NCBI RefSeq assembly: GCF_015999465.1
Contig: NZ_CP065534.1
Location: 2,418,001 to 2,482,000 of the forward strand
Length of the DNA stretch: 64,000 nt
Source: Lonsdalea populi
GTDB lineage: Bacteria > Pseudomonadota > Gammaproteobacteria > Enterobacterales > Enterobacteriaceae
Direction: 5' to 3'
Within the stretch, counting starts at the first letter, position 1. Each line of letters starts with the position of its first letter. A model generated the notes under the pieces. That model did not search any database. It saw only the letters and a program-made list of their open reading frames with translations, and was not told the origin of the DNA. Below, piece by piece: positions 1 to 24,843 of the stretch. The position numbers and the translations under genes were made by a program.

Positions 1-2119
1 CCGCTACCGTCGGTATTTTATAGGTCGCGCCGGTGTCCGTGAGCAAACACCCCTGCTCGTTCCACACCAGTTCCTCGGTGGTTACCCAGCCCATGCCCTG
101 CACGAACCCGCCCTCCACCTGCCCGAGATCCAGCGCCGGATTCAGGGAGGCGCCGGCATCATGCAGAATATCGACCCGCTTGACCCGGTACTCGCCGGTC
201 GACGTATCCACCACCACTTCCGCACAGGCCGCGCCATAAACGAAGTAGTAGAAAGGCTCGCCGCGCCCCGCCTCACGATCGTATTGGATGCCCGGAACCC
301 GATAGTAGCCCGTGGCCGACAGCGGCACCTGATTGACCCACGCCAGATGCGCGACCTGCGCGAAGGTTAAATGCTGATTGCCCGCCCGCGCCACGCCGTT
401 GTGGAACGCAACGTCCGCCGGGGAGCAGGCGTAAAGCCGACACAGCAGTTCGACCAGCCGCTGCTTGATGATCTCCGCCGCCTGCTGAGCCGCTTTACCG
501 TTCAGGTCCGCGCCGCTGGAGGCGGCGGTCGGGGAGGTATTCGGCACCTTGCCCGTGTGCGTGGCGGTAACCTGAATCGACGCGATATCGATTTGCAGCA
601 CCTGCGCCACAATCTGCGCCACTTTGGTATTGAGTCCCTGCCCCATCTCGGTTCCGCCGTGGTTCAACTGCACGCTGCCGTCGGTATACACCAGCAGCAA
701 CGCGCCGGCCTGATTAAGAAAGGAGGCGGTGAACGAAATGCCGAATTTAATCGGCATCAGCGCCAACCCTCGCCGCAGCGTGGGATGCCGGGAATTAAAC
801 GCCCCAATCTCCGCGCGGCGTTGGCGATAGGAAGCGCTTTGCTCCAGCCGTTCGGTGATGTCGTTCAGCCTGTTTTGCCTGACCGGCTGGTAGTAGTGGG
901 TCACATTGCGATCCGTTATCCCGTAATAGTTGCGCTTGCGGACCGCCAGCGGATCCAGATGCAGCGTGCGCGCGATGTGTTCGATCACCTGTTCGACGGC
1001 CGCCATGCCCTGCGGTCCGCCGAAGCCGCGAAACGCGGTATTGGAGACGGTATGCGTCCGGCAGCGGTAGCCGGTGATGAGCGCGTCTCCCAGATAATAG
1101 GCGTTGTCGGCATGAAACATGGCGCGGTCGACAATCGAGCCCGAGAGATCCAGCGAATGGCCGCAGTTGGCCGCCAGATCGATCTTGACTCCGCTGAAAA
1201 CGCCGCGTTCATCGACGCCCACCTCGTAACGCACGAAAAAGCCGTGGCGCTTGCCGGTAATCCGCATATCGTCACGCCGCGACAGGCACATCTTGACCGG
1301 TCGCCCCGTCACGCTCGCGGCCAGCGCGCACAAACAGGCGACGCCCGCCCCCTGCGACTCCTTACCGCCGAACGCGCCGCCCATTCGGCGCATTTCCACC
1401 GTCACCCGGCTTTGGCTGACGCCGAGCACCGACGCCACCAGCTTCTGCACTTCGGTCGGGTTCTGGCTGGAGGCATAAACGACGACCGTCTGATTTTCTC
1501 CCGGGCAGACCAACGCCGACTGCGTCTCCAGATAAAAATGCTCCTGCCCGCCGACGTGAAACCCGCCCGTCAGGCGATGGGCCGCACGGGCCAACGCCGC
1601 GTCAACGTCGCCGCGGCGGTGCTCAAAAGGGCGCTCCACATAGTGTTGTTTCTCCAGCGCTTCCTTGACATCCAGAATCGGGGTCAGCACCTCGTAGTCG
1701 ATCACTGCCGCCTGCGCGCCCCGTCTGGCGGCCTCGCGCGATTCCGCCGCCACGACCAGCACGATCTGTCCCGCATAGTTCACCTCGTCCTCGGCCAGCA
1801 ACATATCGCCCGGCGCCAATGCGCCGATATCCGGATTTCCCGGTATCTGTCGCCGGGTCAGCACCGCCACCACGCCGGGTACGCGATAGCAAGGCTCGAC
1901 GTTCATAGACAGAATGCGCGCGTGCGCGTGGTCGCTCAGTCGCGGGCAGAGATGCAGCAGGCCTTCCGGTTCGGGGCGATCGTCGATATAACGCGCTTCG
2001 CCGCTGACGTGCCGCTCTGCGCTTTCATGAATGGGACTGTCCCCGACGGCGCCGGGGAGCGGCTGGCGGAATTGCGCTTGCAGCGCGGTTTGTTCAGGCG
2101 GTAAGGGACTATGCGACAT
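1..2119 (-). CDS. xdhB: Xanthine dehydrogenase, molybdopterin-binding subunit (C-terminus beyond window)
   Basis: Large subunit of xanthine dehydrogenase, which oxidises hypoxanthine and xanthine to urate in the cytoplasm. Reading leftward from the ATG at 2119 (starts MSHSPLPPEQ), the frame stays open to the window edge, giving 706 codons. The family is usually about 770-800 residues, so roughly the last tenth is missing. Visible family motifs are the N-terminal GEARYIDD segment, MGGAFGGKE (molybdopterin contact), AFRGFGGPQG and GTEMGQGLNTK. The start overlaps the end of xdhA by 11 bp, so the two subunits are translationally coupled. A long open frame on the opposite strand is a GC-rich shadow. 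The family assignment is secure. Substrate preference within purines is inferred from the neighbours. Confidence 0.93.
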   Translation of the reverse strand, partial: MSHSPLPPEQTALQAQFRQPLPGAVGDSPIHESAERHVSGEARYIDDRPEPEGLLHLCPRLSDHAHARILSMNVEPCYRVPGVVAVLTRRQIPGNPDIGALAPGDMLLAEDEVNYAGQIVLVVAAESREAARRGAQAAVIDYEVLTPILDVKEALEKQHYVERPFEHRRGDVDAALARAAHRLTGGFHVGGQEHFYLETQSALVCPGENQTVVVYASSQNPTEVQKLVASVLGVSQSRVTVEMRRMGGAFGGKESQGAGVACLCALAASVTGRPVKMCLSRRDDMRITGKRHGFFVRYEVGVDERGVFSGVKIDLAANCGHSLDLSGSIVDRAMFHADNAYYLGDALITGYRCRTHTVSNTAFRGFGGPQGMAAVEQVIEHIARTLHLDPLAVRKRNYYGITDRNVTHYYQPVRQNRLNDITERLEQSASYRQRRAEIGAFNSRHPTLRRGLALMPIKFGISFTASFLNQAGALLLVYTDGSVQLNHGGTEMGQGLNTKVAQIVAQVLQIDIASIQVTATHTGKVPNTSPTAASSGADLNGKAAQQAAEIIKQRLVELLCRLYACSPADVAFHNGVARAGNQHLTFAQVAHLAWVNQVPLSATGYYRVPGIQYDREAGRGEPFYYFVYGAACAEVVVDTSTGEYRVKRVDILHDAGASLNPALDLGQVEGGFVQGMGWVTTEELVWNEQGCLLTDTGATYKIPTVA

Positions 2120-3551
2120 GGTCTTCGGCCTCCATCTCGTCCGCTTCTCCTTGCAACCCGCCGTCGTAACGCCGCAGCAGGCTTTTGGCGACCTGCATGC
2201 GGTATTCCGCACTGGCGCGTGCATCGCTCAGCGGCGTGAAGTCCTGTTCCAGCGCCAGACAAGCCGCGGCTACGGTCGCTTCGTTCCAGGGCTGATGCAA
2301 CAGCGCCTGTTCGCAATGCGCCGCCCGCCGGGGGATCGCGTCCATCCCGCCGAAGGCGACCCGCGCCTCGGTGACCCGCCCTTGCCGAAACTGCATCGCG
2401 AACGCGCCAAATACGATGGCGATGTCGTCATCCGCCCGTTTGGAGACCTTCCAGGCCCTGAAGAGGTCGATCAGCGGTCCACGCGGGATCAGGATCTCGT
2501 GGATAAACTCGCTCGCCTTCAGCGCCGTTCGACGGTACGACAGGAAGAAATCGCGCAGCGGCAGCGTGCGCGTGTCCGAACCGCGTTGCAGCAGCAGTTC
2601 GGCATCCAGCGCCAGCAGCATCGGGGGGGTATCGCCTATCGGAGAGGCATTGGCGACGTTTCCCCCCAGCGTGCCGCGGTTGCGGATTTGGCGCGAGGCG
2701 AAGCGGCGCAAGGCATGCGAAAACGCGGGGATGAGCGTTTCCAGCCGATGTTCGCACTGGGTGAGGCTCATGCCGGCGCCAAGATGGATATAGCGTTCAT
2801 CCGCCCGCCAGCGCCGCAGCGCGCTCACCTGATCCAGATCGATGACAGGCGTACGATCGCCGGTGGTTTGCGCCGTTTCCAGCATCAGATCGGTCCCGCC
2901 GGCCAACAGGCGGGCCTGCGGATAGCGAAGATAACCGTCGGCCAGCTGTGCCAACGTCGCGGGGATAATGCATTCGCGGCCCCCCTCGGCGAGGGTTTCG
3001 AGCCCGGTCTGAGCTAGCGCCTGCAGCTGCGCGACGGTCAAGCCTTCATTTCGGGTAAAGCCGTCTTCTATCGGATGCTCGCACAGGCGACGGGCCGCGG
3101 CCATGATCGGCCGATAGCCGGTACAGCGGCAAAGATTGCCCGCCAACGCCTGCTCGGCCGCCTTCTCATCCCACCCCTTGCTCTGCTTTTGCAGCACGAA
3201 CAGGGACATCACCATGCCCGGCGTGCAAAAACCACACTGCGACGCGTGCAGATCCACGACCGCCTGTTGCGCCGGGTGAAGCTTACCGTTCTGCCGCAGA
3301 TCCTCGACCGTAATCAGCTGCTTGCCCTGCAACGCGCTGACCGGCATCAGGCAGGCGCAAGCCGTCTCGTAGCGCAACCGTCCCTGCTCTACCCGGCCCA
3401 GCGCCACGGTGCACGCGCCGCAGTCTCCGGATCCGCACCCCTCTTTCGTTCCCACGCGGCGCCTCCGCCGACGCAGATACTGTAATACGGTCATCGCAGG
3501 ATCGAGATCCCGTTCAACCACCCGCGCGTCATGCATTAAAAATTGGATCAT
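2109..3551 (-). CDS. xdhA: Xanthine dehydrogenase, [2Fe-2S]/FAD subunit
   Basis: Small subunit of xanthine dehydrogenase that passes electrons from the molybdenum centre through two [2Fe-2S] clusters to FAD and NAD+. The 480-residue protein has a plant-type ferredoxin domain (EGCGSGDCGACTV, Cys39/44/47). A second cluster domain follows, with CGFCTPG near residue 115 and LCRCTGY near 150. The FAD domain then carries AGGTDLML and GNVANASPIGDTPP. Length and order match the bacterial two-subunit type. The ATG at 3551 is preceded by AGGA and lies about 34 nt downstream of the start point predicted from the sigma-54 promoter at 3597-3611. It forms an operon with xdhB. Confidence 0.95.
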   Translation of the reverse strand: MIQFLMHDARVVERDLDPAMTVLQYLRRRRRRVGTKEGCGSGDCGACTVALGRVEQGRLRYETACACLMPVSALQGKQLITVEDLRQNGKLHPAQQAVVDLHASQCGFCTPGMVMSLFVLQKQSKGWDEKAAEQALAGNLCRCTGYRPIMAAARRLCEHPIEDGFTRNEGLTVAQLQALAQTGLETLAEGGRECIIPATLAQLADGYLRYPQARLLAGGTDLMLETAQTTGDRTPVIDLDQVSALRRWRADERYIHLGAGMSLTQCEHRLETLIPAFSHALRRFASRQIRNRGTLGGNVANASPIGDTPPMLLALDAELLLQRGSDTRTLPLRDFFLSYRRTALKASEFIHEILIPRGPLIDLFRAWKVSKRADDDIAIVFGAFAMQFRQGRVTEARVAFGGMDAIPRRAAHCEQALLHQPWNEATVAAACLALEQDFTPLSDARASAEYRMQVAKSLLRRYDGGLQGEADEMEAEDHVA

Positions 3552-3596
3552 GCGGTTTTTATCCTGGGTTATAAACGGACGATGATTTATATAAGA

Positions 3597-3611
3597 GCAA
3601 TTCCCATACCA
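3597..3611 (-). promoter_or_regulatory. Sigma-54 (-24/-12) promoter of xdhAB
   Basis: Read on the minus strand the site is TGGTATGGGAATTGC, against the consensus TGGCACGNNNNTTGC. The invariant GG and GC are separated by exactly 10 nt. The predicted start point is about 34 nt before the xdhA ATG. Three more such sites precede the other catabolic units of this island, which supports the call. Confidence 0.72.
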
Positions 3612-4169
3612 AAATAAGAACGGGGTTATTCTAATTTACGCTTCCGAAGGCAAACGATTGCCTTTTTTAAGAAAATGCACATCGTTGATATATCATTTAT
3701 CAGGCTGATACCGGGGCGTTGACCCGCTTAATACGAGTGCACCATGACATAGCGTTCCGGCCTTTTATTGCCCTTACAAAGTGCATGGCTATCTCATTTT
3801 TCGGGGCTGAATGATTCGGGGTGAAATAATTGAACCGTCACGAATAGCGTATTCACACAGGGTCTATAGAGGTAACGACAAAGACTTACAGGAACGGCGC
3901 GAACCGCGGGATGGGCGGCACGACGCGAGCCATGCGAAGGCAGCCCCGAAATAACCCCTGCGCAGCGCGCAGGGAGCGATAAATAAGACCACGTCGCGAT
4001 ATCATGAGGGGAATAACCCAAAAATTACGCCGAATACCTTATACAAACATCACAGGGTGGATGAGACGAAGGTTTTATTTTATCAGCGGGATAATTATTA
4101 CGTTAAATATCGCATTTATCATGCCGCGTTATTATTTTCTCCGTACGATAAACCGGCTTTCTCTTATTA

Positions 4170-4200
4170 ATATTAAAACCCTCCGTTTTCATGGAGGGTC
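4170..4200 (-). terminator. Rho-independent terminator of ygfK-ssnA
   Basis: A perfect 7-bp stem (ACCCTCC at 4178-4184, GGAGGGT at 4193-4199) with an 8-nt loop. On the minus strand it is followed by TTTTAATATT. It sits about 45 bp past the ssnA stop codon. Confidence 0.75.
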
Positions 4201-4243
4201 GCTACGGGTTCGAGTAAACCGAATAGGATCCCGCCGGTTTTTT

Positions 4244-5572
4244 TCAGGCCGAATTATCCATCCGCCGCCACAGTTTTTTCGCTTCACGGCGGGCGTGGAA
4301 ATAAATTTCCTCGACGTCAAACGGAAAACGGCGGTCTTCATACACCCACTGGCCCGCCACCATCACGCTATGCACGCTGGCGGCGTTGAGCGCGAACGCC
4401 AGATGCCCGGCCAGATTTTCCGCGCAGAGCGGCGTCGGCGAAAGATAATCGCAGATCGTGAAATCCGCCTGATAGCCCGCGGCCAGCGCGCCGAACGCGG
4501 CGTCGAAGTTGCGCTCCAGCAGCAGGTTGCCCTGATGCAGAAAGCGCATGAAGCTGTCCGGCCACAGCGCGCCGCCCGCGTCACGGTGTTTGAAATAGGC
4601 GAATTTCAGCTCTTCAAACATATCGGCGCCGATGCCGTCCGTCCCCAGCGCCACATGGCGATATTCGGCCAGCCGGGCGTGGTAGCCCACCTGATTGTTC
4701 ATGTTGGAGCGCGGATTATGCGCCAGACAGGCATCCACGCTATTTATCACCGCCGCATCCTCGGCGGAAAGATAAAGCCCGTGCGCAACCAGGCTTTTAT
4801 CATTGAGCACGCCCGCGTGCGCCAGCCGCATCATAGGATCTAAGCCGTAACGATGATGACTGTGGGAAACGTCGTAGCGATCCTCCGCCACATGGAGATG
4901 CAGCCCGCGGCCGGTCGTCCGCACCGCATCCGCCAGCAATTCCAACCCGGCATCGCTCACCGTGAACGGCGCATGCGCGCCGATATGCGCTTCGACCAGA
5001 TACGGCGCGCAACCCGATTTTTTATCCCGATCGAGACGGCGCGCAAAGCGGACGTTCTCTTCCACCCCGCGTCGCAGTTCATCCAGTCCGCCGTTGCGGT
5101 CGGTCGTTTCATAGCAGGTCATGCCGCGCAGCCCGGCGGTAAGGAATCCCCGGCGTAAGATATCCAGCGATCCGTCAATCAGCGACGGGGAAGCGTGATG
5201 GTCGATCACCGCCGTACAGCCGTGCTTGATGGCCTCCAGCGAACACACCAGCCCGCTGTAATACAAAGACGCTTCATCCAGCGCGCGATCCAGCTTCCAC
5301 CACAGATTTTTCAACGTGGAGATGAAGTCGGGACATGGGTCGATTTGCGCCAGAATGCCCCGCGCCAGCCCAGAGTAAAAATGGTTGTGGGCGCAGACGA
5401 GACCCGGCATAACCAGCCGTCCCCGCATCTCTTTCACCGCCGCCGCCGGATAGCGCGCCGTCAGCGCGTTTCCCACGGCGACGATCGCCGCGCCTTCAAT
5501 GGCGATATCCACGCCCTCCTCCACCCAGACGGGCTCAAACTGCACCGCCGTCGCATTACGTAAAATCAGCAT
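4244..5572 (-). CDS. ssnA: SsnA-type amidohydrolase
   Basis: Metal-dependent aminohydrolase of the cytosine deaminase/TRZ-ATZ group, 442 residues, the usual SsnA length. Metal and catalytic motifs are visible in order: HNHFYSG near residue 62, HLHVAEDRYDVSHSH in the middle, VAHG, and GTDGIGAD for the essential aspartate. In E. coli ssnA follows ygfK in the ygf cluster. Published work on gut bacteria places it among the genes needed for anaerobic urate breakdown, where it is thought to act on an opened or reduced purine intermediate. Its start lies 3 bp after the ygfK stop codon, so the two genes are one operon. The exact substrate is not shown by the sequence. Confidence 0.92.
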   Translation of the reverse strand: MLILRNATAVQFEPVWVEEGVDIAIEGAAIVAVGNALTARYPAAAVKEMRGRLVMPGLVCAHNHFYSGLARGILAQIDPCPDFISTLKNLWWKLDRALDEASLYYSGLVCSLEAIKHGCTAVIDHHASPSLIDGSLDILRRGFLTAGLRGMTCYETTDRNGGLDELRRGVEENVRFARRLDRDKKSGCAPYLVEAHIGAHAPFTVSDAGLELLADAVRTTGRGLHLHVAEDRYDVSHSHHRYGLDPMMRLAHAGVLNDKSLVAHGLYLSAEDAAVINSVDACLAHNPRSNMNNQVGYHARLAEYRHVALGTDGIGADMFEELKFAYFKHRDAGGALWPDSFMRFLHQGNLLLERNFDAAFGALAAGYQADFTICDYLSPTPLCAENLAGHLAFALNAASVHSVMVAGQWVYEDRRFPFDVEEIYFHARREAKKLWRRMDNSA

Positions 5573-5575
5573 ACG

Positions 5576-8500
5576 TTACTCCTCCACCCCGCCCAGCAAA
5601 TAGTGATGATCCCGATATACCGTGGTGATGACCCGGCACAGGTCAGCCAGCGCCGGCGGCGCGTCCGCGATCGCGCCGTGGGGGTCGATCGCCAGGCGGT
5701 AAATCCGCTGTTCGTGGCGCACCAAAACGCCGTCCCCATCCAACAGGAAACCGGGATTGCGGCTGGCGGCGAAATCCTGCCGCAAATTGAAGAGCGTGAC
5801 TTTATCCCGGTACGGTTTGCCGTCCCACGGACAAAACTGAGCGCAGTTGCCGCATTCATTGCAATAGGCATCGATGTGCAGCGTTTGGAAACGGTCGCGA
5901 AAGCCGGGCACGGCGATGGAGACATTGGCGCGATTGGGGCACACGTCCACGCACTTGGCGCACACATAGTTGCAGGACAGGCAGCGTTGCGCTTCCTGCC
6001 GGGCGAACGCCTCCGGCGCATCCGCGCCGAGCCGGCTCACCGCCAGTTCCCCCTTGCGGCGGTAGATATCGGCGGGGTCGGTATTCAGCCAGCGTTTGGC
6101 GGCGTGATCGTCATGGATATTTTCCCGGCGCAGAATTTCGTCGGCCGCGCGCCGCGCGGCCCCTATCGCCGCGACAATCGAGGCCGGGCCGCTGTGCGCA
6201 TCGCCAATCAGAAAGACATTGTCGCGCTCGGTTTCCTGCGTTTGACGGTTCACCAGCGGCAGGCCGTCGGCCGCCAGCGGGATCCCCATCCGCGCCAGCG
6301 CGGCGTAGTCCGGCTCTTCGCCGATGGCCGAGATAAGCGCATCCAGATGCAGCAGCTCAGTACGTTCGGTCGCCGACGGACGAGCTCTGCCCTGCGCATC
6401 CGGCTCGCCGGGCTGCATGACGCGCAGCGTGACCGCGCCGTCCGCATCGAAACGTTCCGGATCCACCCAGAAGCGAAACGTCGCCCCGGCGCGCCGCGCC
6501 GCCTCCACCTCTTCACGCCAGGCGGGCATATCCTTATCCCCTCGCCGGTAGAGCACCGTCACCCGCTCCACGCCGGGTACGCGCAGCGCGGCGCGCGCGC
6601 AGTCCATCGCGGTATTGCCCGCGCCGATCACCCCGACGGAACGGCCGAGCGAGAGCGGCTCTTGACGATTGAAACGGCGGAGGAACTGGAACGACGGCCA
6701 CACGGCGGTATTGTCCCCCGCCAGCGCCGCTTCGCGGCTGCGATATGCGCCGGTCCCTACGCAAACATAGGGATACCCGCGCCGACGCAGCGCCTCTATC
6801 GTCAACTCGCCGTCGCAACCATACTCAAACCGCACGCCGTGCCGGGCGATGAAGTCGATATCGTGCCGGATCTTCTCCGCCGGGATACGGAACCGCGGTA
6901 CGATGTGGCGCACCACGCCGCCCGCGCTGCGCTCCCGTTCGAACACGGTGACCGGGTGTCCCGCCCGGGCCAGAAAATACCCCGTAGCCAGACCCGCCGG
7001 CCCAGCCCCGATAACCGCCGCTGGGCGGCGACTGCCCGAACCGGCCGGTCGGCGCCAGCGGCGTTGATATTCCGCCCACCCTTTTTCCAACACGATGCGT
7101 TTGATTTCCCGGATGTTCAACGCGCCGTCGTAATCCAGCCGGGTGCAGTTGGACTGACACTGATGATCGCAAATATGGCCGGTGATCGCGGGAAGCGCGT
7201 TACGCTGATAGATCAGCGCCAGCGCCTCGGCGTAACGCCCCGCCCCCGCCAGACGCAGATATTCAGGAATGTCCTGATGAATAGCGCAGGCGCTGACGCA
7301 GGGCGCGACATAGCAGTCCGCGGCCGGCAAAACGCCGCCCGCCGCTATCGTCTCGTCCCGTTTCCAGGATTTTTGATGATAATCCGCCGTCAGCGCGGCG
7401 CGCGCCAGCGTCTCCAGCCGGTCGACATTCACCGAGGTCATCTCCCAGCCCGCAGAGGTCTCCAATTCCCGCGCGCAGGCGGCCAGGCGCAGGTAGCCGC
7501 CGGGTTTGAGCAGATCCGTCGCCATCGTGATGGGGTGAATGCCGGTTTCATGAATAGCGCGGATATTGATCTGGCTGGCGCCGCCGGAGTAAGAGATGGG
7601 AAGCCGTCCCTGAAAATGGCGCGACAAGACGGCGGCGACGTTAATCGACAGCGGAAACAGCGCCCGGCCCGACATGTACATCTCCTCTCCCGGCAGGCGC
7701 CGCTTATGGTTGCCGGCGCCCAGCGTATTGGTGAGTTTGACCCCGAATCCCAATCCCTGCTGACGCGCCAACGTCAGCAGGCGCTCCAGCATGGCCAGCG
7801 CCCGTTCAAGCGGAAGATCATGCAAAAAAGACTTTTCTTTCAACTGGATATAGTTGAATCCGCAGCCATCCAGAATCTCACGCACCCGCGAGTAGCCGAG
7901 CAGCGTGGGGTTCAGCTTCACAAACGTATGCAGTTTTTTCTCTTCAAGGAGGTAACGGCAAATGGCTTCGATTTCATCGGGCGGGCACCCATGCATCGTG
8001 GATAGCGTCACGCTGGTGACCAGCCGGGAAGGGATGCGATCAGGCAGCGTCGACAGCGCAGTCGGCGACTCCCGCCCGGCGATGTCCCGCAGCAAATCGA
8101 CGTGAGCGACCCAATGCGCGAGCGTCCGGCGATAGCGCTGAAAGGCGGGCGTATCGACGGCCCCCATCATGGTCGCCATAAAGGTCTGCATCGGGGCCTG
8201 TTGAAGGCCTTTCAGGTCATAGCCCACGCTCATATTGAAAATAAACGATCGCCCCTGTTCCGCGGAGCGAGGCGCGAACAGACACTCCAGCAGCCACAGC
8301 GCGAACCACGCCTTGAGGTATTCGTCGGCGGCTTTCGCCAGCGTGAACTCGGTGGACCACTCGGTATTAAACCCTTCGTCTTCGGCGTCGATGCACGGTT
8401 TATCCAGCGTCAGCCGATCCAGAATCTGGACCGTTTTCAATTCGATGAAACTGCCGCCGGTCAGCCAGGCGGTAATGATATTTTGCGCTAACTGCGTGTG

Positions 8501-8683
8501 CGGCCCGGCCGCCGGCCCCACCGGGGTGTCGCAGACTTCGCCGAACACGCGCATTTGCCGGGCGGGATGACGGCGATAAAACTGACGCTCGGGAATGCCG
8601 AAAATAGAGCGGCTTTGCCGGTATTCGGAAAACATTCTTTCCAGCAGCGACTCGAACGGAATGGGACGCATCACATCACCCAC
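5576..8683 (-). CDS. ygfK: YgfK: Fe-S/FAD oxidoreductase (annotated elsewhere as putative selenate reductase subunit)
   Basis: A large multidomain oxidoreductase of 1035 residues (E. coli YgfK is close to this length). The N-terminal 430 residues form a dihydroorotate-dehydrogenase-like barrel. Next comes a GltD-like cysteine region (CVSACAIHQDIPEYL, CDHQCQSNCTRLD), then paired dinucleotide-binding domains (GAGPAGLATGY, GVIGAGNTAMDCAR). A C-terminal ferredoxin region has CLSCNYVCAKCVDVCPNRAN and CNECGNCAQFCPWDGK, enough for two [4Fe-4S] clusters. The architecture resembles enzymes that use NAD(P)H to reduce a cyclic C=C bond. The urate-degradation literature implicates YgfK in such a step, and the selenate name is probably historical. 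The start is GTG at 8683 with AGGAG 8 nt upstream. An ATG two bases earlier is in a frame that stops at once. Confidence 0.93.
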   Translation of the reverse strand: MGDVMRPIPFESLLERMFSEYRQSRSIFGIPERQFYRRHPARQMRVFGEVCDTPVGPAAGPHTQLAQNIITAWLTGGSFIELKTVQILDRLTLDKPCIDAEDEGFNTEWSTEFTLAKAADEYLKAWFALWLLECLFAPRSAEQGRSFIFNMSVGYDLKGLQQAPMQTFMATMMGAVDTPAFQRYRRTLAHWVAHVDLLRDIAGRESPTALSTLPDRIPSRLVTSVTLSTMHGCPPDEIEAICRYLLEEKKLHTFVKLNPTLLGYSRVREILDGCGFNYIQLKEKSFLHDLPLERALAMLERLLTLARQQGLGFGVKLTNTLGAGNHKRRLPGEEMYMSGRALFPLSINVAAVLSRHFQGRLPISYSGGASQINIRAIHETGIHPITMATDLLKPGGYLRLAACARELETSAGWEMTSVNVDRLETLARAALTADYHQKSWKRDETIAAGGVLPAADCYVAPCVSACAIHQDIPEYLRLAGAGRYAEALALIYQRNALPAITGHICDHQCQSNCTRLDYDGALNIREIKRIVLEKGWAEYQRRWRRPAGSGSRRPAAVIGAGPAGLATGYFLARAGHPVTVFERERSAGGVVRHIVPRFRIPAEKIRHDIDFIARHGVRFEYGCDGELTIEALRRRGYPYVCVGTGAYRSREAALAGDNTAVWPSFQFLRRFNRQEPLSLGRSVGVIGAGNTAMDCARAALRVPGVERVTVLYRRGDKDMPAWREEVEAARRAGATFRFWVDPERFDADGAVTLRVMQPGEPDAQGRARPSATERTELLHLDALISAIGEEPDYAALARMGIPLAADGLPLVNRQTQETERDNVFLIGDAHSGPASIVAAIGAARRAADEILRRENIHDDHAAKRWLNTDPADIYRRKGELAVSRLGADAPEAFARQEAQRCLSCNYVCAKCVDVCPNRANVSIAVPGFRDRFQTLHIDAYCNECGNCAQFCPWDGKPYRDKVTLFNLRQDFAASRNPGFLLDGDGVLVRHEQRIYRLAIDPHGAIADAPPALADLCRVITTVYRDHHYLLGGVEE

Positions 8684-8828
8684 ATGGCTCTCCTTGATGA
8701 CTTGTTCTTGGAATAAACAACGAGACGGCGCCGCGTTAAGCTGAAAACGCCGCGCCGGCGCGAAGGGTTATCTCCTTGGTTTCACAGGCCGGGTTTTACG
8801 GACCTGCGGCAGATTTTTATAACCAAAA

Positions 8829-8843
8829 GCAATATGCAGGCCA
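8829..8843 (-). promoter_or_regulatory. Sigma-54 (-24/-12) promoter of ygfK-ssnA
   Basis: The minus strand reads TGGCCTGCATATTGC, with GG and GC 10 nt apart and an intact TTGC. It predicts a leader of about 135 nt before the ygfK GTG. The shared enhancer-like site at 8986-9000 lies about 150 bp upstream. Confidence 0.72.
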
Positions 8844-8985
8844 GAAATGGGACGCATGACGGGCGGTAACGGGGGAGGCGCGCGCCTTAGCGCGTTGAGC
8901 GGATCAGATGAAATCGCGATGGCGGTGACGCCGGGCCGATATCTTTCGGTTCAGCGTGATAATTTTCGCAAAGAGAGCGGCTCGA

Positions 8986-9000
8986 TTCTCATTTTGAGAA
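8986..9000. promoter_or_regulatory. Putative enhancer site of the YgeV/XdhR activator (copy 1)
   Basis: The 15-bp inverted repeat TTCTCATTTTGAGAA (arms TTCTCA and TGAGAA, 3-bp spacer) lies between the divergent sigma-54 promoters of ygfK (about 150 bp away) and xdhC (about 70 bp away). The identical site in reverse orientation is at 12768-12782, upstream of the activator gene. Both copies are flanked by ACGCC a few bases downstream. Binding by the activator is inferred from position, symmetry and the exact repeat. Confidence 0.65.
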
Positions 9001-9063
9001 AAACGCCGAAAACGTACTCGCCCCGCCGTCGCTTCGCCTCCCGCTTTACGACGGGGCGTTCAC

Positions 9064-9078
9064 GGGCACAAAATTTGC
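9064..9078 (+). promoter_or_regulatory. Sigma-54 (-24/-12) promoter of xdhC
   Basis: GGGCACAAAATTTGC matches the sigma-54 consensus at the -24 GGCAC and the -12 TTGC, with the required 10-nt spacing. Transcription would begin near 9090. That is too close to the ATG at 9096 and favours the ATG at 9117. Confidence 0.72.
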
Positions 9079-9116
9079 ATCGTCGGATCACCCCCATGAC
9101 ACACGCGAGGTACGGA

Positions 9117-9926
9117 ATGAGGCTATTTGCTCACGCAGCGGAATTGGAAAAAAACAACCGGGCTTTCGCCTTCATCCACATCGTGGAATGCCGTGGATCG
9201 ACGCCCCGCCACAGCGCCAGCATGCTGGTCGATGAGGACGGCAACCGCTTCGGCACCATCGGCGGAGGGATGATGGAACGGCGGGTGCTGGAAGAAGCGA
9301 AAGAGGCGCTGGCGCAGGGAGAATCCCGCCTGTTCAGCGGTCGCATGGCGCGTCAGGGCGACGGGGCGGTCGGCTCGGACTGCGGCGGGACGATAAAGGT
9401 GCATATCGCGGTCCAGCCGCGCCGCCCGCAGCTGATTCTGATCGGCGCCGGTCACGTAAACCGGGCCATCGCCGCAGCCGCCGAGCCGCTGGACTTCGAG
9501 ATCACGCTGGTGGATACCTGGCGGGAGAATCTGGAGCATCCCGATCTCCCCGCCGACAGCCGCAAATTATGCGCCGACAGTTTTACCGCCGGTCTCCGGC
9601 AGTTGACGTTGGACGGACACTGCTATGTGGTGATCGCCACCAATCATCAGGATAAAGAGGCGCTGACGCAGACCATCGGCAAGCCGGTCCGTTATCTGGG
9701 GCTGTTGGCCAGCCGGCGCAAGCTGCAAACCTTCCGCGCCGAGCTGAAAAAAGACGGCGTTGACGCCGCCGATCTGGCGGCGCTGCGCTCGCCCATCGGG
9801 CTGGATATCGGCGCGGAAACGCCGGCGGAGATCGCCATCAGCGTGCTGGCGGAGCTATTGCAGGTGAAAAACGGCGCCAGCGCGGCCTCGCTTCAATCGA
9901 CCACGCTGACGGTGGTGTCACCCTAG
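9117..9926 (+). CDS. xdhC: XdhC-family molybdenum hydroxylase maturation factor
   Basis: XdhC/CoxI-family chaperone that binds molybdenum cofactor, helps its sulfuration, and delivers it to xanthine dehydrogenase. The 269-residue protein has the N-terminal XdhC domain (CRGSTPRHSASML, GTIGGGMMERRVLEEA, SDCGGT). A C-terminal Rossmann domain follows (LILIGAGHVNRAIAAAA, VVIATNH). The frame is open from 8847, but GAGG lies just before 9117 and the sigma-54 promoter ends at 9078, so 9117 is the best start. The 3' end overlaps the convergent hyuA by 9 bp. Two molybdenum hydroxylases in this window could be clients. The sequence does not say which, but shared sigma-54 control points to XdhAB. Confidence 0.88.
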   Translation: MRLFAHAAELEKNNRAFAFIHIVECRGSTPRHSASMLVDEDGNRFGTIGGGMMERRVLEEAKEALAQGESRLFSGRMARQGDGAVGSDCGGTIKVHIAVQPRRPQLILIGAGHVNRAIAAAAEPLDFEITLVDTWRENLEHPDLPADSRKLCADSFTAGLRQLTLDGHCYVVIATNHQDKEALTQTIGKPVRYLGLLASRRKLQTFRAELKKDGVDAADLAALRSPIGLDIGAETPAEIAISVLAELLQVKNGASAASLQSTTLTVVSP

Positions 9927-11318
9927 CGCGTCGGCGGCCGGCGCGCGGAACGGCCGGCGGCGCAGAAAGCGCCCATGCCCTGCGCGTCCTGAGAAAACGC
10001 CGTCCCGCCAGACGATCGTTCCCCGGCTCAGGGTCATGACCGGCCAACCGCGGCATGTCATGCCCTCGTAGGGGGAGTAGTCGCCGTTATCATGCATGTC
10101 GTCATGGCGCAGCGTGACGCGGCGTTGGGGATCGAACACCACCAGATCGGCATCCGCGCCGGGCAGCAGGCTGCCCTTGCGCGGCCACAGGCCGAAGAGC
10201 TGCGCCGGGCGGGCGCTGGTCAGCGCGACAAACCGCTCAGCGCTGATACGCCCGGTCGCCACGCCGCTGGAGTACAGCAGCGCCAGACGATTTTCCACCC
10301 CCGGCAGCCCGTTGGGACAACGGCTGAAATCCCCGCCGGAAAGCGCCCGGCGTTGGCTCAGGGAAAAATGGCAGTGATCGGTCGCCAGCGTCGCTATGCC
10401 GCCGTCCGCCACCCCTTGCCACAGCGCCGCCTGCTCCTCCGGCCCGCGCAAAGGCGGGCTGAGGATATACTTCAGCCCATCGGGCTCCAGATAGCGGCGG
10501 TCGTCCAACAGCAGATACTGCGGACAGGTTTCGGCCCACACCGGCTGATTACGACGTTGGGCCAGCCGCAGGTAATCCAGACCCAGCCCATTGGAGAGGT
10601 GGACGATATAGAGCGGCGCGCAGTCCGCCAGCGCCGCCAGATTGATCATGCGCGCGATCGCCTCCGCCTCACAGGCGACAGGACGGCTCAAGGCATGATA
10701 AATGGGCGCGGTTTTCCCCTGTTGCAGCAACGCATCGCGGCGCAGGCGGATCGCCGCATCGTTCTCGGGGTGTACCGTGGCGAGCGCCTCCACCTGACGC
10801 AGCCGCTGCAACGCCCGCAGTATCGCCGTGTCGTCCAGCTTATACTGATAGGTTAGGTAGAGTTTAAAGCTGCTGATCCCCTCCTGTTCCACCATCGAGG
10901 CCATTTCATCCAAAATCGCGTCGTCTACGTGCTGAACCACGCCGTGGAAGCTGTAGTCGATCACCGCCTGACCTTTCGCGTAGGCATGGTAGCTCGCCAG
11001 CGGGTCATGCAGGCGACAGCCCGGCGGGCCGAACCCCATGTGATCGATAATCGTGGTCGTGCCGCCGCATGCCGCCGCGCGGGTGCCGGCATAAAAATCG
11101 TCGCAGCTGCGCCCGATACCGACATCGATGTTGAAATGGGTATGCGCATCAACGCCGCCCGGCATCACCTGACAGCCCGCGACGTCGATCACGTCCGTCT
11201 CCGGCGTGACGGCGATATCGGGACCGCGCTGCGCGATGCGCCCCTGGTCGATCAATAGATCTTCCTGATATCGTCCCTGATGGTCGATCAGCGTACCGCC
11301 CTTGAGTAACCGTGGCAT
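9918..11318 (-). CDS. hyuA: D-phenylhydantoinase/dihydropyrimidinase-family HyuA
   Basis: Cyclic-amide hydrolase of 466 residues that opens hydantoin-like rings to carbamoyl amino acids. Catalytic landmarks are present: HTHFNID (metal pair), SSFKLYLTYQYK (the lysine carboxylated in this family), HPEND, HLSNG and ATDHC. The sequence closely follows E. coli HyuA from the ygeV-hyuA cluster, as I remember it. The start at 11318 has AGGAGA at good spacing; the longer upstream frame is not needed. It lies 29 bp downstream of ygeX in the same operon. In the proposed urate pathway it would hydrolyse a ring intermediate made by YgfK and SsnA. Confidence 0.93.
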   Translation of the reverse strand: MPRLLKGGTLIDHQGRYQEDLLIDQGRIAQRGPDIAVTPETDVIDVAGCQVMPGGVDAHTHFNIDVGIGRSCDDFYAGTRAAACGGTTTIIDHMGFGPPGCRLHDPLASYHAYAKGQAVIDYSFHGVVQHVDDAILDEMASMVEQEGISSFKLYLTYQYKLDDTAILRALQRLRQVEALATVHPENDAAIRLRRDALLQQGKTAPIYHALSRPVACEAEAIARMINLAALADCAPLYIVHLSNGLGLDYLRLAQRRNQPVWAETCPQYLLLDDRRYLEPDGLKYILSPPLRGPEEQAALWQGVADGGIATLATDHCHFSLSQRRALSGGDFSRCPNGLPGVENRLALLYSSGVATGRISAERFVALTSARPAQLFGLWPRKGSLLPGADADLVVFDPQRRVTLRHDDMHDNGDYSPYEGMTCRGWPVMTLSRGTIVWRDGVFSGRAGHGRFLRRRPFRAPAADALG

Positions 11319-11347
11319 AAGACTCTCCTGTTGCCGCCGAGGGAGAA

Positions 11348-12544
11348 TTAACGCATTGCCGGAAGGCCTTCCCACACCACTTCCCGATAGTGTTGACGGT
11401 CCGTATCGCCTTCGGAGCTGATCGCCAATACGCAGGACGAGGCGTCCAGCCGTAGCCGGTCCATCAGCGCCTGACGCTGGGGACTGTGCAATATCGCCGC
11501 CAGCACGCCCATGCCGACGGCCCCGGACTCGCCGGAAACGATGCGGGGGTCGCGCCCGAGCGGATTGCCTAAAACCCGCATCCCCAGCGCCGTCACCCGG
11601 TCTTCACAGGAGATAAACTGACGGGCGCAATCGCGCAGCCGCGGCCAACCCAACGGATTCGGCTCGCCGCAGGCCAGCCCCGCCATCATGGTGTCCATCG
11701 CGCCGCCCAGGGCGACGATTTCGCCTTGTTGTGCGGAACGAAACAGGCAGTCGGCGCGCTCCGGCTCCACGATCGCCGTATGCAGCGACTCGGCGCCGTA
11801 ACGGTCGACCAGATGATCCAGAACGCCCGCCGCCATCGCCCCCACGCCGGCCTGTAGAAAGACGTGCGTCGGCGCAGGCCACTCGCGCTCGGCGATCTGC
11901 TCGACCGTTTCGACCGCCAGCGTCCCGTAGCCCTGCATAATCCAGGCGGGGATCTTTTCGTAACCCGACCAGGCGGTGTCCTGCACCACCTCCCACCCGT
12001 TCTCCTGCGCGGTGTGCAGGGTCAGCCGCACGGTGTCGTCGTAATTCATGTCGGTGACGATACACTCAGCTCCCAGGCGAGTGATATGGGCCACGCGTTC
12101 GGCTGACGCCCCCTTCGGCATATACACCACCGCGCGCTGCCCCAGCGCGTTGGCCGCCCAGGCCACTCCGCGGCCGTGATTGCCGTCCGTCGTCGTGGCG
12201 AAGGTGAGGCGTTCCGGCAAGGCCGCCCGGCCTTGTTCAAACGAGAAATCCGCCAGCGCGAGGTGATATTTTTCGCAGACGCAGCGGGCGATGGCGTACG
12301 CGCCGCCGAGGATTTTGAACGCATTCAGGCCGAAGCGCTGAGACTCGTCTTTCACCCATACCCGCCCTACGCCGAGCGCGGCGGCAAAAGCCTCCAGCGA
12401 GTACAACGGCGTCGGGGCGTAGCCCGGCATCCGCCGGTGAAAGGCCCGCGCCTGCTCCGCCTGTTCCCGGCCGAACAGCGCCGCTCCCCGTGGAGTAAAG
12501 TGAGCGTTATCGGCGATGCGCATTCGTAGTGAAAACGTAGACAT
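11348..12544 (-). CDS. ygeX: 2,3-diaminopropionate ammonia-lyase
   Basis: PLP enzyme of fold type II that splits 2,3-diaminopropionate into pyruvate and two ammonia molecules. The protein is 398 residues, the same length I recall for E. coli YgeX, from MSTFSLRMRIAD to the WEGLPAMR end. The PLP lysine lies in RFGLNAFKILGGAYA, with TTDGNHGRG and the SGESGAVG phosphate loop also present. The start at 12544 is preceded by AGGA and lies about 35 nt after the start point predicted from the sigma-54 promoter at 12591-12605; the frame extends further upstream without support. It heads the ygeX-hyuA operon. In the pathway it would be the carbon-releasing final step. Confidence 0.95.
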   Translation of the reverse strand: MSTFSLRMRIADNAHFTPRGAALFGREQAEQARAFHRRMPGYAPTPLYSLEAFAAALGVGRVWVKDESQRFGLNAFKILGGAYAIARCVCEKYHLALADFSFEQGRAALPERLTFATTTDGNHGRGVAWAANALGQRAVVYMPKGASAERVAHITRLGAECIVTDMNYDDTVRLTLHTAQENGWEVVQDTAWSGYEKIPAWIMQGYGTLAVETVEQIAEREWPAPTHVFLQAGVGAMAAGVLDHLVDRYGAESLHTAIVEPERADCLFRSAQQGEIVALGGAMDTMMAGLACGEPNPLGWPRLRDCARQFISCEDRVTALGMRVLGNPLGRDPRIVSGESGAVGMGVLAAILHSPQRQALMDRLRLDASSCVLAISSEGDTDRQHYREVVWEGLPAMR

Positions 12545-12590
12545 AATCGGTATCCTGATGATGTTGATGGCATTATTCATCTCAACAGGT

Positions 12591-12605
12591 TCAATATCCG
12601 TGCCA
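12591..12605 (-). promoter_or_regulatory. Sigma-54 (-24/-12) promoter of ygeX-hyuA
   Basis: The minus strand reads TGGCACGGATATTGA. The -24 half is a perfect TGGCACG and spacing is correct, but the last base of the -12 TTGC is A. The enhancer-like site at 12768-12782 lies about 170 bp upstream. Confidence 0.7.
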
Positions 12606-12767
12606 GTTTGTCGTTGCGGCGCCCGCCGCGATGCCGAATAATCGAAAACCGGAAACGTCGAGATATCGCGCCGCACGGCGTGAGCGCTCACGCCGTCGTT
12701 CCGGGAAATATTCCGCATAGACGGATGTTTTTGCGCCGTATCACGATAGGTGAAAAAAGAAGGCGTA

Positions 12768-12782
12768 TTCTCAAAATGAGAA
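12768..12782. promoter_or_regulatory. Putative enhancer site of the YgeV/XdhR activator (copy 2)
   Basis: TTCTCAAAATGAGAA is the exact reverse complement of the site at 8986-9000. It sits between the divergent ygeX promoter and the activator gene, ending 61 bp before the activator ATG, so it could also serve autoregulation. Imperfect symmetry extends outward (GGCGT on the left, ACGCC on the right). Confidence 0.65.
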
Positions 12783-12843: not shown

Positions 12844-14595
12844 ATGACGAGCCAAGCCCTGTCACTGATGAACCTTCAGCCCACGATCACGCATTTCACG
12901 CAGATGCTCAGCCAGGTCCTGGGGCTGGAAGTCGAAATCGTCGATAACCGCTTGCTGCGCGTAGCGGGGAGCGGCCCGTATCGTTCCCGCATCGGCCACC
13001 CGCCGGAGCACAGACACCTGCTGCAATACGTCGTGGATCACAAGAAAGAGAAGGTGGTCATTCATTCGCGGCACGACCCCGTTTGCCGGCGCTGCGGGGA
13101 ATTCGGCCGCTGCGGCGAGCTGGCCTTTCTCGGCCTGCCGGTAATGCATGAAGGCGTCTGTCTCGGGGTGATCAGCCTCGCGGCAATCACCCCGGAACAG
13201 CAGCGGCGATTACAGGAAAACATCGACGTATTTTCAGATTACGTCCGCCATGTTTCCTCGCTGCTGATGGCCAACCTGACGAAAAGCCCCGCGGCGCGCC
13301 ACGATATGGACGCGTTGTTCACCACGCTGATCAACAGCATGGATCAGGGCATTCTGGCGCTGGACGAGCACGGCATGATGACCTTCGCCAACCAGAACGC
13401 GCTGACGCTGCTCAATGCCCGTCGGGAGACGCTGGCCCAAGGTCCGATCGCCATTCGGCCGCTGGTCGCGAGTAAAGACTTCGCCAACGGCAATGCCCAG
13501 CATGTGGTCGCCTTCGCAAACCGGCAGGAAGTGGTGATCGGACAGCACCATCGCGGCAACGCCTTGCAGCTGTTTCTCTTCGCCTTTCATCAGTCCGAAC
13601 GCCCCGCGCCGATCGATGCCGCGGACAGCGAACCCCGCATCGGTCCATTTATCGGCCATGCGCCGGCCATCCAGACGCTGAAGCAGCGCATCGCGCGTTT
13701 TGCCGACAGCCCGTCCAGCATCATGATCACCGGGGAAAGCGGCAGCGGCAAAGAGATGCTGGCGCGGGCGATCCACCAGCTGGGGCGGCGCGGCGCGCGG
13801 CCTTTCGTCGCCATCAACTGTGCGGCGATCCCGGAACATCTGCTGGAAAGCGAACTGTTCGGCTACGTCAAAGGCGCGTTTACCGGCGCGGCTCCCAACG
13901 GCAAGGCCGGGCTGATTCAGTCCGCTCACGGCGGCACGCTGTTTCTCGATGAAATCGGCGATATGCCGCTGACATTGCAGGCCAAACTACTGCGGGTGCT
14001 GGAAACGCGCGAGGTCATGCCGCTGGGCGCCGCCAAGCCGGTGGCCGTCGATATCCGCATTGTCTCCGCCACGCATCAGGATTTAGCGCGGGCGATCGCA
14101 GACGGCGCGTTCCGTGAAGATCTCTACTACCGCCTGAAGGTGATCCCGATCGAGATCCCCCCGTTGCGGGAACGTACGGAAGACATTGAGCTGCTGGCGC
14201 ACCATTTTCTCAATCTGCACACCCTGCGTATCGGCAGCACCTACCCCGGCGTCAGCCGGGAGGTCATGGCGCTGCTGAGGCATTATCGCTGGCCGGGCAA
14301 TGTGCGCGAATTGAGTAATCTGATGGAGTATCTGGTGAATATCGTGCCCGACGGCGAAGTGATCGACCCGACGCTGCTGCCGCCCCATTTTCATCAAGCG
14401 GGGCCGGCGGCCACGCCGCCCACGGCCGCCGCGACGCGCGCTGGTGCTCCCAGCCTGAAGCAGTGGGAGCACCAGCGCATCGAGGACGCGTTGCGCCGCG
14501 GCATCGGTAAAAAACAGCTGGCGCAGGAGCTGGAGATCAGCCTGGCCACCCTGTATCGGAAAATCAAAAAGTACGGGCTGAGCGATCTTCGCTAG
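12844..14595 (+). CDS. ygeV: Sigma-54-dependent activator, YgeV/XdhR type
   Basis: Bacterial enhancer-binding protein of 583 residues. The N-terminal 130 residues form a sensor domain with [10 protein letters not shown] (Cys81, Cys84, Cys90), a possible metal or redox site that I also recall in E. coli YgeV. A PAS-like domain follows. The AAA+ domain has Walker A GESGSGKE, the sigma-54 contact loop GAFTGA, Walker [11 protein letters not shown] and an arginine-finger region [10 protein letters not shown]-terminal Fis-type helix-turn-helix ([21 protein letters not shown]) ends the protein. It diverges from ygeX. Four sigma-54 promoters in the surrounding 9 kb make it the obvious activator of the island. 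An AAGAG upstream supports 12844, though a start at the second methionine is possible. Confidence 0.9.
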
Positions 14596-14605
14596 CCCGA
14601 TGGGA

Positions 14606-15196
14606 TTAGCGGCGCCGGAGCAGCCGCTGATACTGTTCCGGCGTATCCATATCCCAATGAATCGCGCCGTCCGCCACCGGCACCCGCCGTTGCCCGTGGC
14701 GCGCGATCAACGCCTTCATCGAGGCGTCGTCCGCCGCCGCCAGCACCGCCTCGCGCATGGCGGGCGGCAACAGCACCGGGTGCCCTTTCCCCTGCGCGTA
14801 TTCCGGCACCAGACAGACGCCGTCGCGCCGTCGCCACAGCGCACGGTAGACCTCGCCGCTGACCGCGGGCATATCCCCCAACGCGAGAAAGAAATAGCCG
14901 TCGTCCAACGCCGCCGCGCCGCAGCGAATGGAAGAGAACATCCCCTGCGTGAAGTCCTCATTGTGCCGCAGGGTAATGCGCGAATGGCCGCCATAGCGCC
15001 AGCTTAACTCCGCGCCGCGAAAGCCGGTCACCAGCACGACGCGATCGCAGAAAGAGAGCGCCGCGCCCAGCGCGCCGTCGAGCACCGTGCCTTCTCCCCA
15101 GGGCAGCATCATTTTCCACTGCCCCATGCGGCTGGAAAGCCCCGCCGCCAGCATCAGGCAGACCTTGGGCGTCGTCGCGTCCGCGCCGAGGGTCAC
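14606..15196 (-). CDS. mocA: MocA-type molybdenum cofactor cytidylyltransferase
   Basis: Nucleotidyltransferase of the MobA/MocA family that makes molybdopterin cytosine dinucleotide, the cofactor form used by many bacterial xanthine-oxidase-type enzymes. Landmarks are LAAGLSSRMGQWKMMLPW (nucleotide-binding loop), the ALGDMPAVS metal motif and the GKGHPVLL segment. Translation most likely starts at GTG 15196, whose TGA overlaps the stop of the upstream [2Fe-2S] gene (GTGA), giving 196 residues, close to E. coli MocA. A longer open frame upstream overlaps that gene and is spurious. It is the last gene of the RpiR-headed operon and presumably equips the fused dehydrogenase. Confidence 0.88.
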   Translation of the reverse strand: MTLGADATTPKVCLMLAAGLSSRMGQWKMMLPWGEGTVLDGALGAALSFCDRVVLVTGFRGAELSWRYGGHSRITLRHNEDFTQGMFSSIRCGAAALDDGYFFLALGDMPAVSGEVYRALWRRRDGVCLVPEYAQGKGHPVLLPPAMREAVLAAADDASMKALIARHGQRRVPVADGAIHWDMDTPEQYQRLLRRR

Positions 15197-15651: not shown

Positions 15652-15654
15652 GTG

Positions 15655-18885: not shown

Positions 18886-18887
18886 GG

Positions 18888-21902: not shown

Positions 21903-21916
21903 GATAAGTTCCTCCG

Positions 21917-22696: not shown

Positions 22697-22732
22697 CTCA
22701 TTTTCCCCTTGAAATCAGGCCGCCTCGCTGGA

Positions 22733-24798: not shown

Positions 24799-24843
24799 GG
24801 CACAACTGTTCTCTATGTAAACGTCAAAAGAAACGGTTGTGCC
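24799..24843. promoter_or_regulatory. Long inverted repeat upstream of the RpiR gene (putative operator)
   Basis: Arms GGCACAACTGTT (24799-24810) and AACGGTTGTGCC (24832-24843) are inverted with one mismatch and a 21-bp spacer. Their centres lie 33 bp apart, about three helical turns, so two bound dimers could face the same side. The site ends 56 bp before the regulator ATG. Operator function is inferred. Confidence 0.5.

Follow-up and report, generated by a model that had tools for sequence, protein, structure and literature searches.

Results

The window analyzed here, meaning the whole 64-kb stretch of DNA, spans positions 2418001 to 2482000 of the 3.86-Mb single-contig genome of Lonsdalea populi (G000). 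It carries a reductive uric acid cluster, in which YgfK, SsnA, HyuA, and YgeX score above curated family cut-offs, along with the xanthine dehydrogenase genes xdhAB, an xdhC-type maturation gene, the activator gene ygeV, and a run of genes headed by an rpiR-family regulator (Table 1). A first-pass annotation of this DNA had described four -24/-12 promoters, before xdhAB, ygfK-ssnA, xdhC, and ygeX-hyuA, as a local sigma-54 regulon governed by YgeV. Here we show that the four promoter sites are real and that another lies before rpiR, and we argue that these promoters probably answer to two activators.

Sigma-54 sites of the cluster

The 15-nucleotide (nt) sites were all present where they had been described: TGGTATGGGAATTGC for xdhAB (3597-3611, minus strand), TGGCCTGCATATTGC for ygfK-ssnA (8829-8843, minus strand), GGGCACAAAATTTGC for xdhC (9064-9078, plus strand), and TGGCACGGATATTGA for ygeX-hyuA (12591-12605, minus strand). 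Scoring of the window with a hand-entered sigma-54 weight matrix, as the first-pass annotation had suggested, placed these four at ranks 1, 2, 4, and 7. Eight window sites scored at least 13, compared with 3.0 expected from ten resampled windows; all resampled controls in this study are first-order Markov sequences rather than exact shuffles. The original promoter list was correct as far as it went, having overlooked a fifth promoter, before rpiR (24852-24867), and the two palindromes described below. A second, weaker sigma-54 site lies near the rpiR promoter, at 24829-24844. GG and GC stand ten bases apart in all but one of the five main sites, the ygeX site having GA. The genome also encodes RpoN, found by genome search. 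Far from the cluster, a sigma-54-like site (TGGTATAACCTTTGCT, 56883-56898, score 13.1) sits at the start of an open reading frame judged by eye to resemble an aminotransferase gene.

To follow the sites across relatives, we searched 392 genomes for YgeV, which was present in 70, and used the cluster region of 30 of these 70 for promoter work. The ygfK promoter has a site scoring at least 10.5 in every genome in which the start was located (29/29), and that site is identical in seven close genomes. The ygeX site is kept throughout the close clade (8/8), and a site before rpiR occupies the same place in all seven clade genomes that carry the rpiR run, with scores of 11.8 to 15.8. An xdhC site scoring at least 14 and lying 50 to 59 bp before the start was found in 12 of 29 genomes. 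The xdhA site is the same in G352 and has one change in G087, but is shared by only 3 of the 8 close genomes overall; G022 and G350 have different, weaker sites before xdhA. In the window, the xdhA, xdhC, and ygeX sites begin 53 to 61 bp upstream of their start codons, and the ygfK site is 172 bp before its start codon, a distance that ranges from 63 to 282 bp in relatives.

The departure from GC at the ygeX site is itself conserved: among promoters divergent from ygeV (those of ygeX or ygeW), 32 of 32 have A or T at -12. All ygfK (26/26) and xdhC (13/13) promoters that have a palindrome partner have C there. Chromatin immunoprecipitation sequencing (ChIP-seq) in Escherichia coli provides an external comparison: the sigma-54 sites listed for this cluster are at xdhA, ygeW, ygfK, and ygfT (PMC4591121), so that two window sites, at the ygfK promoter and the promoter divergent from ygeV, have ChIP-bound counterparts, the latter at ygeW. 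Sigma-54 polymerase is also reported, in the relevant part of PMC8743547, to select the ygeV-ygeW region in vitro.

A palindrome shared by three promoters

Both divergent intergenic regions contain one palindrome of the form TTCTCANNNTGAGAA, and these are the only two perfect matches in the 64 kb. Palindrome 1 lies 152 bp from the -24 element of ygfK and 73 bp from that of xdhC, while palindrome 2 lies 172 bp from the -24 element of ygeX and about 60 bp before ygeV. Across relatives the wider form is TT(C/A)TCANNNTGA(G/T)AA. We counted a pair wherever a palindrome carrying no more than one mismatch stood 40 to 300 bp upstream of a sigma-54 site scoring at least 10. Such pairs were present in all 32 sequences on the far side of ygeV (resampled controls, 1 of 3200), in 26 of 30 at ygfK (1 of 3000), and in 13 of 29 at xdhC (1 of 2900). 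The window itself has this shared upstream site together with a sigma-54 site at ygfK, xdhC, and ygeX; the rpiR site of the window has no such partner at zero or one mismatch. Helical phasing between palindrome and promoter gave R values of only 0.40 to 0.52 on distinct distances, computed on related genomes that are not independent.

In E. coli K-12, a 36-kb region contains 11 places that match the palindrome with zero to two mismatches; among them are those upstream of xdhA, of ygeW, and of ygfK and in the ygfT-uacT interval. The promoters that bear it belong to the same four genes that have listed sigma-54 ChIP sites. As given in part of PMC12132413, the YgeV iModulon of E. coli contains the genes of those four promoters, and a passage of PMC11408624 links this iModulon by name to uric acid. 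Among Firmicute loci of YgeV relatives (L014-L019), four of six have the palindrome near a sigma-54 site, a count with no shuffle control. We conclude that the palindrome of the three promoters is best explained as a predicted YgeV site.

NtrC-like sites at xdhAB and rpiR

Upstream of the xdhA sigma-54 promoter lies a tandem of TGCAC-N7-GTGCA sites, with 3 to 4 mismatches per pair in three genomes. It is the only pair in the window spaced by 30 to 33 bp with six or fewer mismatches, and its member at 3769-3785 is the window's only NtrC-like match with at most one mismatch. The two sites are 31 bp apart in L. populi, G352, and G087 (mismatches of 1+3, 2+2, and 1+2, respectively), and in each of the three genomes none of 200 resampled sequences matched the tandem. 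The glnA promoter of the same genome has an NtrC-like pair 32 bp apart; the genome carries a putative glnA-glnL-ntrC set, named from gene order. Best NtrC-like pair totals elsewhere are 9 to 11 in the ygfK and ygeX regions and 8 to 10 at xdhC.

At the rpiR promoter, a weak NtrC-like tandem includes TGGTGC-N16-GCACCA, the sole perfect inverted repeat of its form in the window. Its arms, TGGTGC and GCACCA, are kept in the clade while most of the surrounding bases have diverged.

Table 1. Genes and regulatory features of the window, in order of position. Cut-offs are those of the NCBIfam models; scores and ranks are from the sigma-54 weight matrix.
Feature	Position	Strand	Evidence
xdhB, xanthine dehydrogenase molybdopterin subunit, cut by window edge	2..2104	-	TIGR02965 above cut-off
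xdhA, xanthine dehydrogenase small subunit	2109..3551	-	TIGR02963 above cut-off
Sigma-54 site of xdhAB, TGGTATGGGAATTGCT	3596..3611	-	score 13.2, rank 7 in window; 3/8 close genomes
Tandem NtrC-like sites at xdhA, 3738-3754 and 3769-3785	3738..3785	.	31 bp apart
ssnA, aminohydrolase	4244..5572	-	TIGR03314, NF005540 above cut-off
ygfK, reductase	5576..8671	-	TIGR03315 above cut-off
Sigma-54 site of ygfK-ssnA, TGGCCTGCATATTGCT	8828..8843	-	score 13.9, rank 4; site in 29/29 genomes
Palindrome 1, TTCTCATTTTGAGAA, proposed YgeV site for ygfK and xdhC	8986..9000	.	perfect match; conserved
Sigma-54 site of xdhC, GGGCACAAAATTTGCA	9064..9079	+	score 14.9, rank 2; 12/29 genomes
xdhC/yqeB-type molybdoenzyme maturation factor	9117..9926	+	NF045664, TIGR02964 matches, both below cut-off
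hyuA, D-hydantoinase	9918..11318	-	TIGR02033 above cut-off
ygeX, diaminopropionate ammonia-lyase	11348..12544	-	TIGR03528 above cut-off
Sigma-54 site of ygeX-hyuA, TGGCACGGATATTGAA, non-C at -12	12590..12605	-	score 15.3, rank 1; 8/8 close genomes
Palindrome 2, TTCTCAAAATGAGAA, proposed YgeV site for ygeX	12768..12782	.	perfect match
ygeV, enhancer-binding protein for sigma-54 with GAF (conserved Cys), PAS, AAA+, and Fis-type helix-turn-helix (HTH) parts	12844..14595	+	PF00158, PF02954; GAF and PAS
mocA/ygfJ-type cytidylyltransferase, last of rpiR run, 5' end not fixed	14606..15100	-	PF12804; TIGR03310 below cut-off on piece used
xdhD by position: molybdenum hydroxylase with fused flavin adenine dinucleotide part (15655-18891) and iron-sulfur subunit (15193-15651)	15193..18891	-	no NCBIfam model above cut-off
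nit, N-carbamoyl-D-amino-acid hydrolase relative	18888..19847	-	8i99 at E 1e-118; E47/K127/C171
hyuC, M20 carbamoylase/allantoate amidohydrolase family	19878..21113	-	TIGR01879, NF006769 above cut-off; 3n5f, 8c46
ATP-binding cassette (ABC) transporter, nitrate/taurine type: permease, ATPase, binding protein	21147..23773	-	ATPase and permease hits under the NCBIfam cut-offs; no assignment for the binding protein
rpiR-family regulator, first gene of run	23811..24743	-	PF01418, PF01380
Fifth sigma-54 site, before rpiR, TGGAATGTCCTTTGCT	24852..24867	-	score 13.7, rank 5; 7/7 clade genomes
Weak NtrC-like tandem at rpiR promoter, with TGGTGC-N16-GCACCA at 24987-25014	24977..25024	.	best pair 31 bp in 7/7 clade genomes

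The activator YgeV

YgeV had been called the only sigma-54 activator in the window, and it is indeed the only one of the genome's eight strong PF00158 proteins encoded there, the other seven lying elsewhere. Its sequence contains GAFTGA, presumably the sigma-54 contact motif, and its fold matches 1ojl and 5ep3. One 10-residue stretch of its HTH is present in every Enterobacteriaceae homologue listed. In the GAF part, Cys81, Cys84, Cys90, and Cys106 are invariant in all 29 aligned homologues (G375, G280, and G011 were excluded). Alignment A1 did not include the E. coli sequence. Six Firmicute relatives keep these residues less completely, four having the first three cysteines and one having all four. 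That the cysteines hold a metal or an iron-sulfur cluster, and hence sense redox state, is a guess. The AlphaFold model (predicted local distance difference test score 70, predicted template modeling score 0.41) says little on the cysteines, because its confidence is moderate and the 50 listed PDB matches align mostly over the AAA+ domain. The matches listed in a contig search for YgeV relatives were mostly other sigma-54 activators, with only L013 a close orthologue. In enteric pathogens the same protein has been named IsrR for an indole effect, according to part of PMC9426417, and a CRP site between ygeV and ygeW in E. coli is described in PMC12507026.

The genus of L. populi (g1) has YgeV in only two of its five sampled genomes; therefore, the cluster was gained or lost inside the genus. 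In two drafts, G352 (L123, L124) and G375 (L133, L134), several cluster genes are split or have stops (nit in G352; ygfK, ygeX, xdhB, and ygeV in G375), through either assembly errors or decay.

A different set of enzymes beside the conserved core

The rpiR-abcABC-hyuC-nit-xdhD-mocA run comprises nine same-strand genes whose intergenic gaps in the window do not exceed 95 bp. The nearest solved relatives of Nit are N-carbamoyl-D-amino-acid hydrolases, and we read its E47, K127, and C171 as the Glu-Lys-Cys triad of such enzymes. A search of the first 34 kb of the window detected no ygeW, ygeY, yqeA, uacT, or ygfT, and ygeW, ygeY, yqeA, and uacT were not in the cluster of the window clade. Genome-wide, only distant relatives of E. 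coli YgeW (28 to 31% identity) and YgeY (26 to 32%) were found, a search that did not extend to yqeA, uacT, or UacY. Across the 70 YgeV genomes, YgeW occurs without Nit in 61, Nit without YgeW in 8, and neither in 1 (G139, which has a YgeV fragment); the two never occur together (Fisher p about 1e-9, uncorrected for relatedness, the eight Nit genomes belonging to four genera).

Several further observations concern these genes. Two genomes that lack YgeV, G262 and G330, nevertheless have a Nit, with 74% identity. Elsewhere in the L. populi genome, at G000:C1:3310708-3311601, lies a second nit paralogue (54% identity), which is also found in G117 and G221, genus members without YgeV. In G016 and G126, the gene occupying the xdhC position has E. 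coli YqeB as its best match. Two genomes in the sampled family encode a YgeW with the same sequence as the E. coli K-12 protein.

All six relatives that have minus-strand mocA-xdhD beyond ygeV and no nit provide xdhD with its own sigma-54 promoter and palindrome. In the window clade, no sigma-54 site was found before xdhD, which abuts or overlaps nit (gap of -2 to 14 bp), and xdhD would therefore be expected to rely on the rpiR promoter. From its location and regulation, the XdhD-like enzyme may be the urate reductase.

Discussion

We consider it likely that the window holds a two-activator sigma-54 regulon that serves the reductive breakdown of uric acid, with YgeV for the ring-opening core and NtrC for purine oxidation, perhaps also for the rpiR run. 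In this model, a signal, perhaps urate or its product, would activate YgeV, which would bind the palindromes in the two divergent intergenic regions and loop onto sigma-54 polymerase at ygfK-ssnA, xdhC, and ygeX-hyuA. Under nitrogen shortage, NtrC would act through sites 31 bp apart to drive xdhAB and perhaps the rpiR run. Xanthine dehydrogenase would supply urate, whose ring the XdhD-like enzyme, YgfK, and SsnA would reduce and open. HyuA would then yield diureidopropionate, from which Nit and HyuC, replacing YgeW and YgeY, would take off the two ureido groups, leaving YgeX to form pyruvate. Binding and expression in L. populi are predicted throughout from sequence, and several points gathered below count against the model.

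The promoters might, to begin with, be chance matches, with the genes expressed from ordinary promoters. Plain consensus counting in the window was uninformative here: allowing at most three mismatches, the bare pattern has 471 matches compared to 609 in shuffles, fewer than expected. The case for the sites is made instead by their position and conservation. Their bases are conserved within diverged intergenic DNA, and sigma-54 ChIP peaks are listed at E. coli ygfK and ygeW (PMC4591121), so we regard chance as very improbable. It is also conceivable that another conserved regulator binds the palindrome and that YgeV acts elsewhere. The palindrome is not unique, having 47 genomic places with at most one mismatch (9 for a reversed control pattern), and four other perfect genomic copies all lack a sigma-54 partner. 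In a search for a wider YgeV regulon among 44 of these places, 7 have a sigma-54-like site scoring at least 11 at 40 to 300 bp, two being the window's own; the other five score 11.0 to 12.9, and a random window place has such a site 6.6% of the time. The remaining three places all lie in the window; two of them were covered when palindromes were paired with the window promoters, and the third is at 54716. Against the two-activator model in general, 16 of 29 genomes lack the pair at xdhC, and the sigma-54 ChIP site of E. coli ygfT fits the consensus poorly and was missed by our own scan. Yet the pair stands beside ygeV in every one of the 32 sequences, recurs in most of the six Firmicute loci of YgeV relatives (again without a shuffle control), and fits the promoters of the E. 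coli YgeV iModulon, which together make a different regulator quite unlikely.

A single activator, with YgeV driving all sigma-54 promoters including xdhAB, is somewhat less remote but still improbable. The YgeV iModulon (PMC12132413) includes E. coli xdhABC, which has a two-mismatch palindrome, and the window has a one-mismatch palindrome upstream of xdhA at 3697-3711, 95 bp from the sigma-54 site. This palindrome was not found in G352 or G087, which nevertheless retain the sigma-54 site and the NtrC-like tandem, and the window xdhAB is of the TIGR02963/TIGR02965 type, compared with the three-gene xdhABC of E. coli. With the xdhA palindrome not conserved and none paired at rpiR, we dropped YgeV as the activator of all promoters. 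The local regulon of the first-pass annotation therefore stands beside YgeV for ygfK, xdhC, and ygeX, which share the palindrome, and is not supported for xdhAB; its link to nitrogen status is kept, through NtrC at the xdhA tandem rather than through YgeV. The assignment is least secure at rpiR, where the inverted repeat may instead be an operator of RpiR or another protein, with the sigma-54 site served by some other activator. We rate this as the less probable reading but a substantial one. The repeat sits in the upstream region of the first gene of the run, its NtrC-like halves are poor (in four genomes, the total of the tandem was equaled or bettered by 30, 46, 33, and 4 of 200 resampled sequences), and a mostly coding control region before mocA is equally constant in spacing (30 bp, totals of 8 to 10). 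On the other hand, the arms face as they do in tandem NtrC sites, their spacing is near that of glnA in the same genome (31 versus 32 bp), and they are kept where neighboring bases diverged. A sigma-54 promoter, moreover, requires an AAA+ activator, and RpiR proteins are not of this kind. Because the control region too has constant spacing, we grade NtrC action at rpiR as possible, within the two-activator model that we favor.

That model is partly anticipated. A sigma-54/YgeV regulon for the uric acid pathway is already implied in E. coli by the YgeV iModulon and the ChIP sites. The E. coli regulon (xdhABC, ygeWXY-hyuA, ygfK-ssnA-ygfM-xdhD, ygfT, and uacT) resembles the window in that an activator of the same family adjoins the shared core genes and the palindrome occurs in the ChIP-bound regions of ygeW, ygfK, xdhA, and ygfT; it differs in that the window has nit, hyuC, an ABC transporter, and rpiR, and an xdhAB of another type with NtrC-like sites. 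In Clostridiales, DioR is a predicted sigma-54 activator of dpaL, ygeW-ygfK-ssnA-ygeY, and xdhC-type genes, its function being listed as unknown (PMC6615313, in the part bearing on it). Its targets are much the same as those proposed here, with the same kind of palindrome in four of the six Firmicute loci, although the identification of any of L014-L019 with DioR is our own inference. That source's logo of the DioR upstream activating sequence may already show the palindrome. The xdhA arrangement is like the NtrC enhancer of the glnAp2 type, in which a sigma-54 promoter is preceded by two NtrC-like sites separated by about three turns of the helix; it differs in that the xdhA and rpiR pairs are at 31 bp and the rpiR sites are poor matches.

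The enzymes invite a similar comparison. The E. coli route proceeds through XdhD-YgfM, YgfK, SsnA, HyuA, YgeW, YgeY, and YgeX (PMC12990295 and the sections of PMC12507026 on the pathway). The window shares YgfK, SsnA, HyuA, and YgeX with the pathway of E. coli and Clostridioides difficile, and it has an XdhD-like enzyme as well. It differs at the 2-ureido step, for which section 9 of that paper names YgeW and UacY and no such hydrolase pair (PMC12507026), whereas the window has a D-carbamoylase relative, and an M20 hydrolase of another subfamily takes the place of YgeY. We tentatively suggest that the clade rebuilt the pathway for nitrogen scavenging, with the D-carbamoylase and M20 hydrolase standing in for the YgeW/YqeA carbamoyl-phosphate route and YgeY, the ABC importer for UacT, and the xdhD-like gene placed under NtrC. 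We hold this at somewhat under an even chance because the XdhD-like enzyme is distant (26 to 28% identity with XdhD of the E. coli type, as found in relatives such as G126) and the control region is constant in spacing. The same distance counts against the overall model, as does the finding that no NCBIfam model matched Nit above cut-off. The two-activator split and the D-carbamoylase and M20 hydrolase in place of YgeW and YgeY are apparently new, as we found no account of either in a literature search covering titles and the starts of abstracts, with most subscription journals outside it.

This analysis defines a candidate binding site for YgeV, whose E. coli regulon rests mainly on expression clustering, and ties that site to published sigma-54 ChIP sites. 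It suggests how a single pathway could respond to one signal through some of its promoters and to nitrogen shortage through others. A 2012 paper described the natural function of hydantoinases as still unclear (PMC3546935, in the part that treats it). With the enzyme swap comes a proposed natural substrate for a D-carbamoylase, a type of enzyme with industrial uses, and, if the swap is true, the D-hydantoinase/D-carbamoylase pair would have a natural job in urate breakdown.

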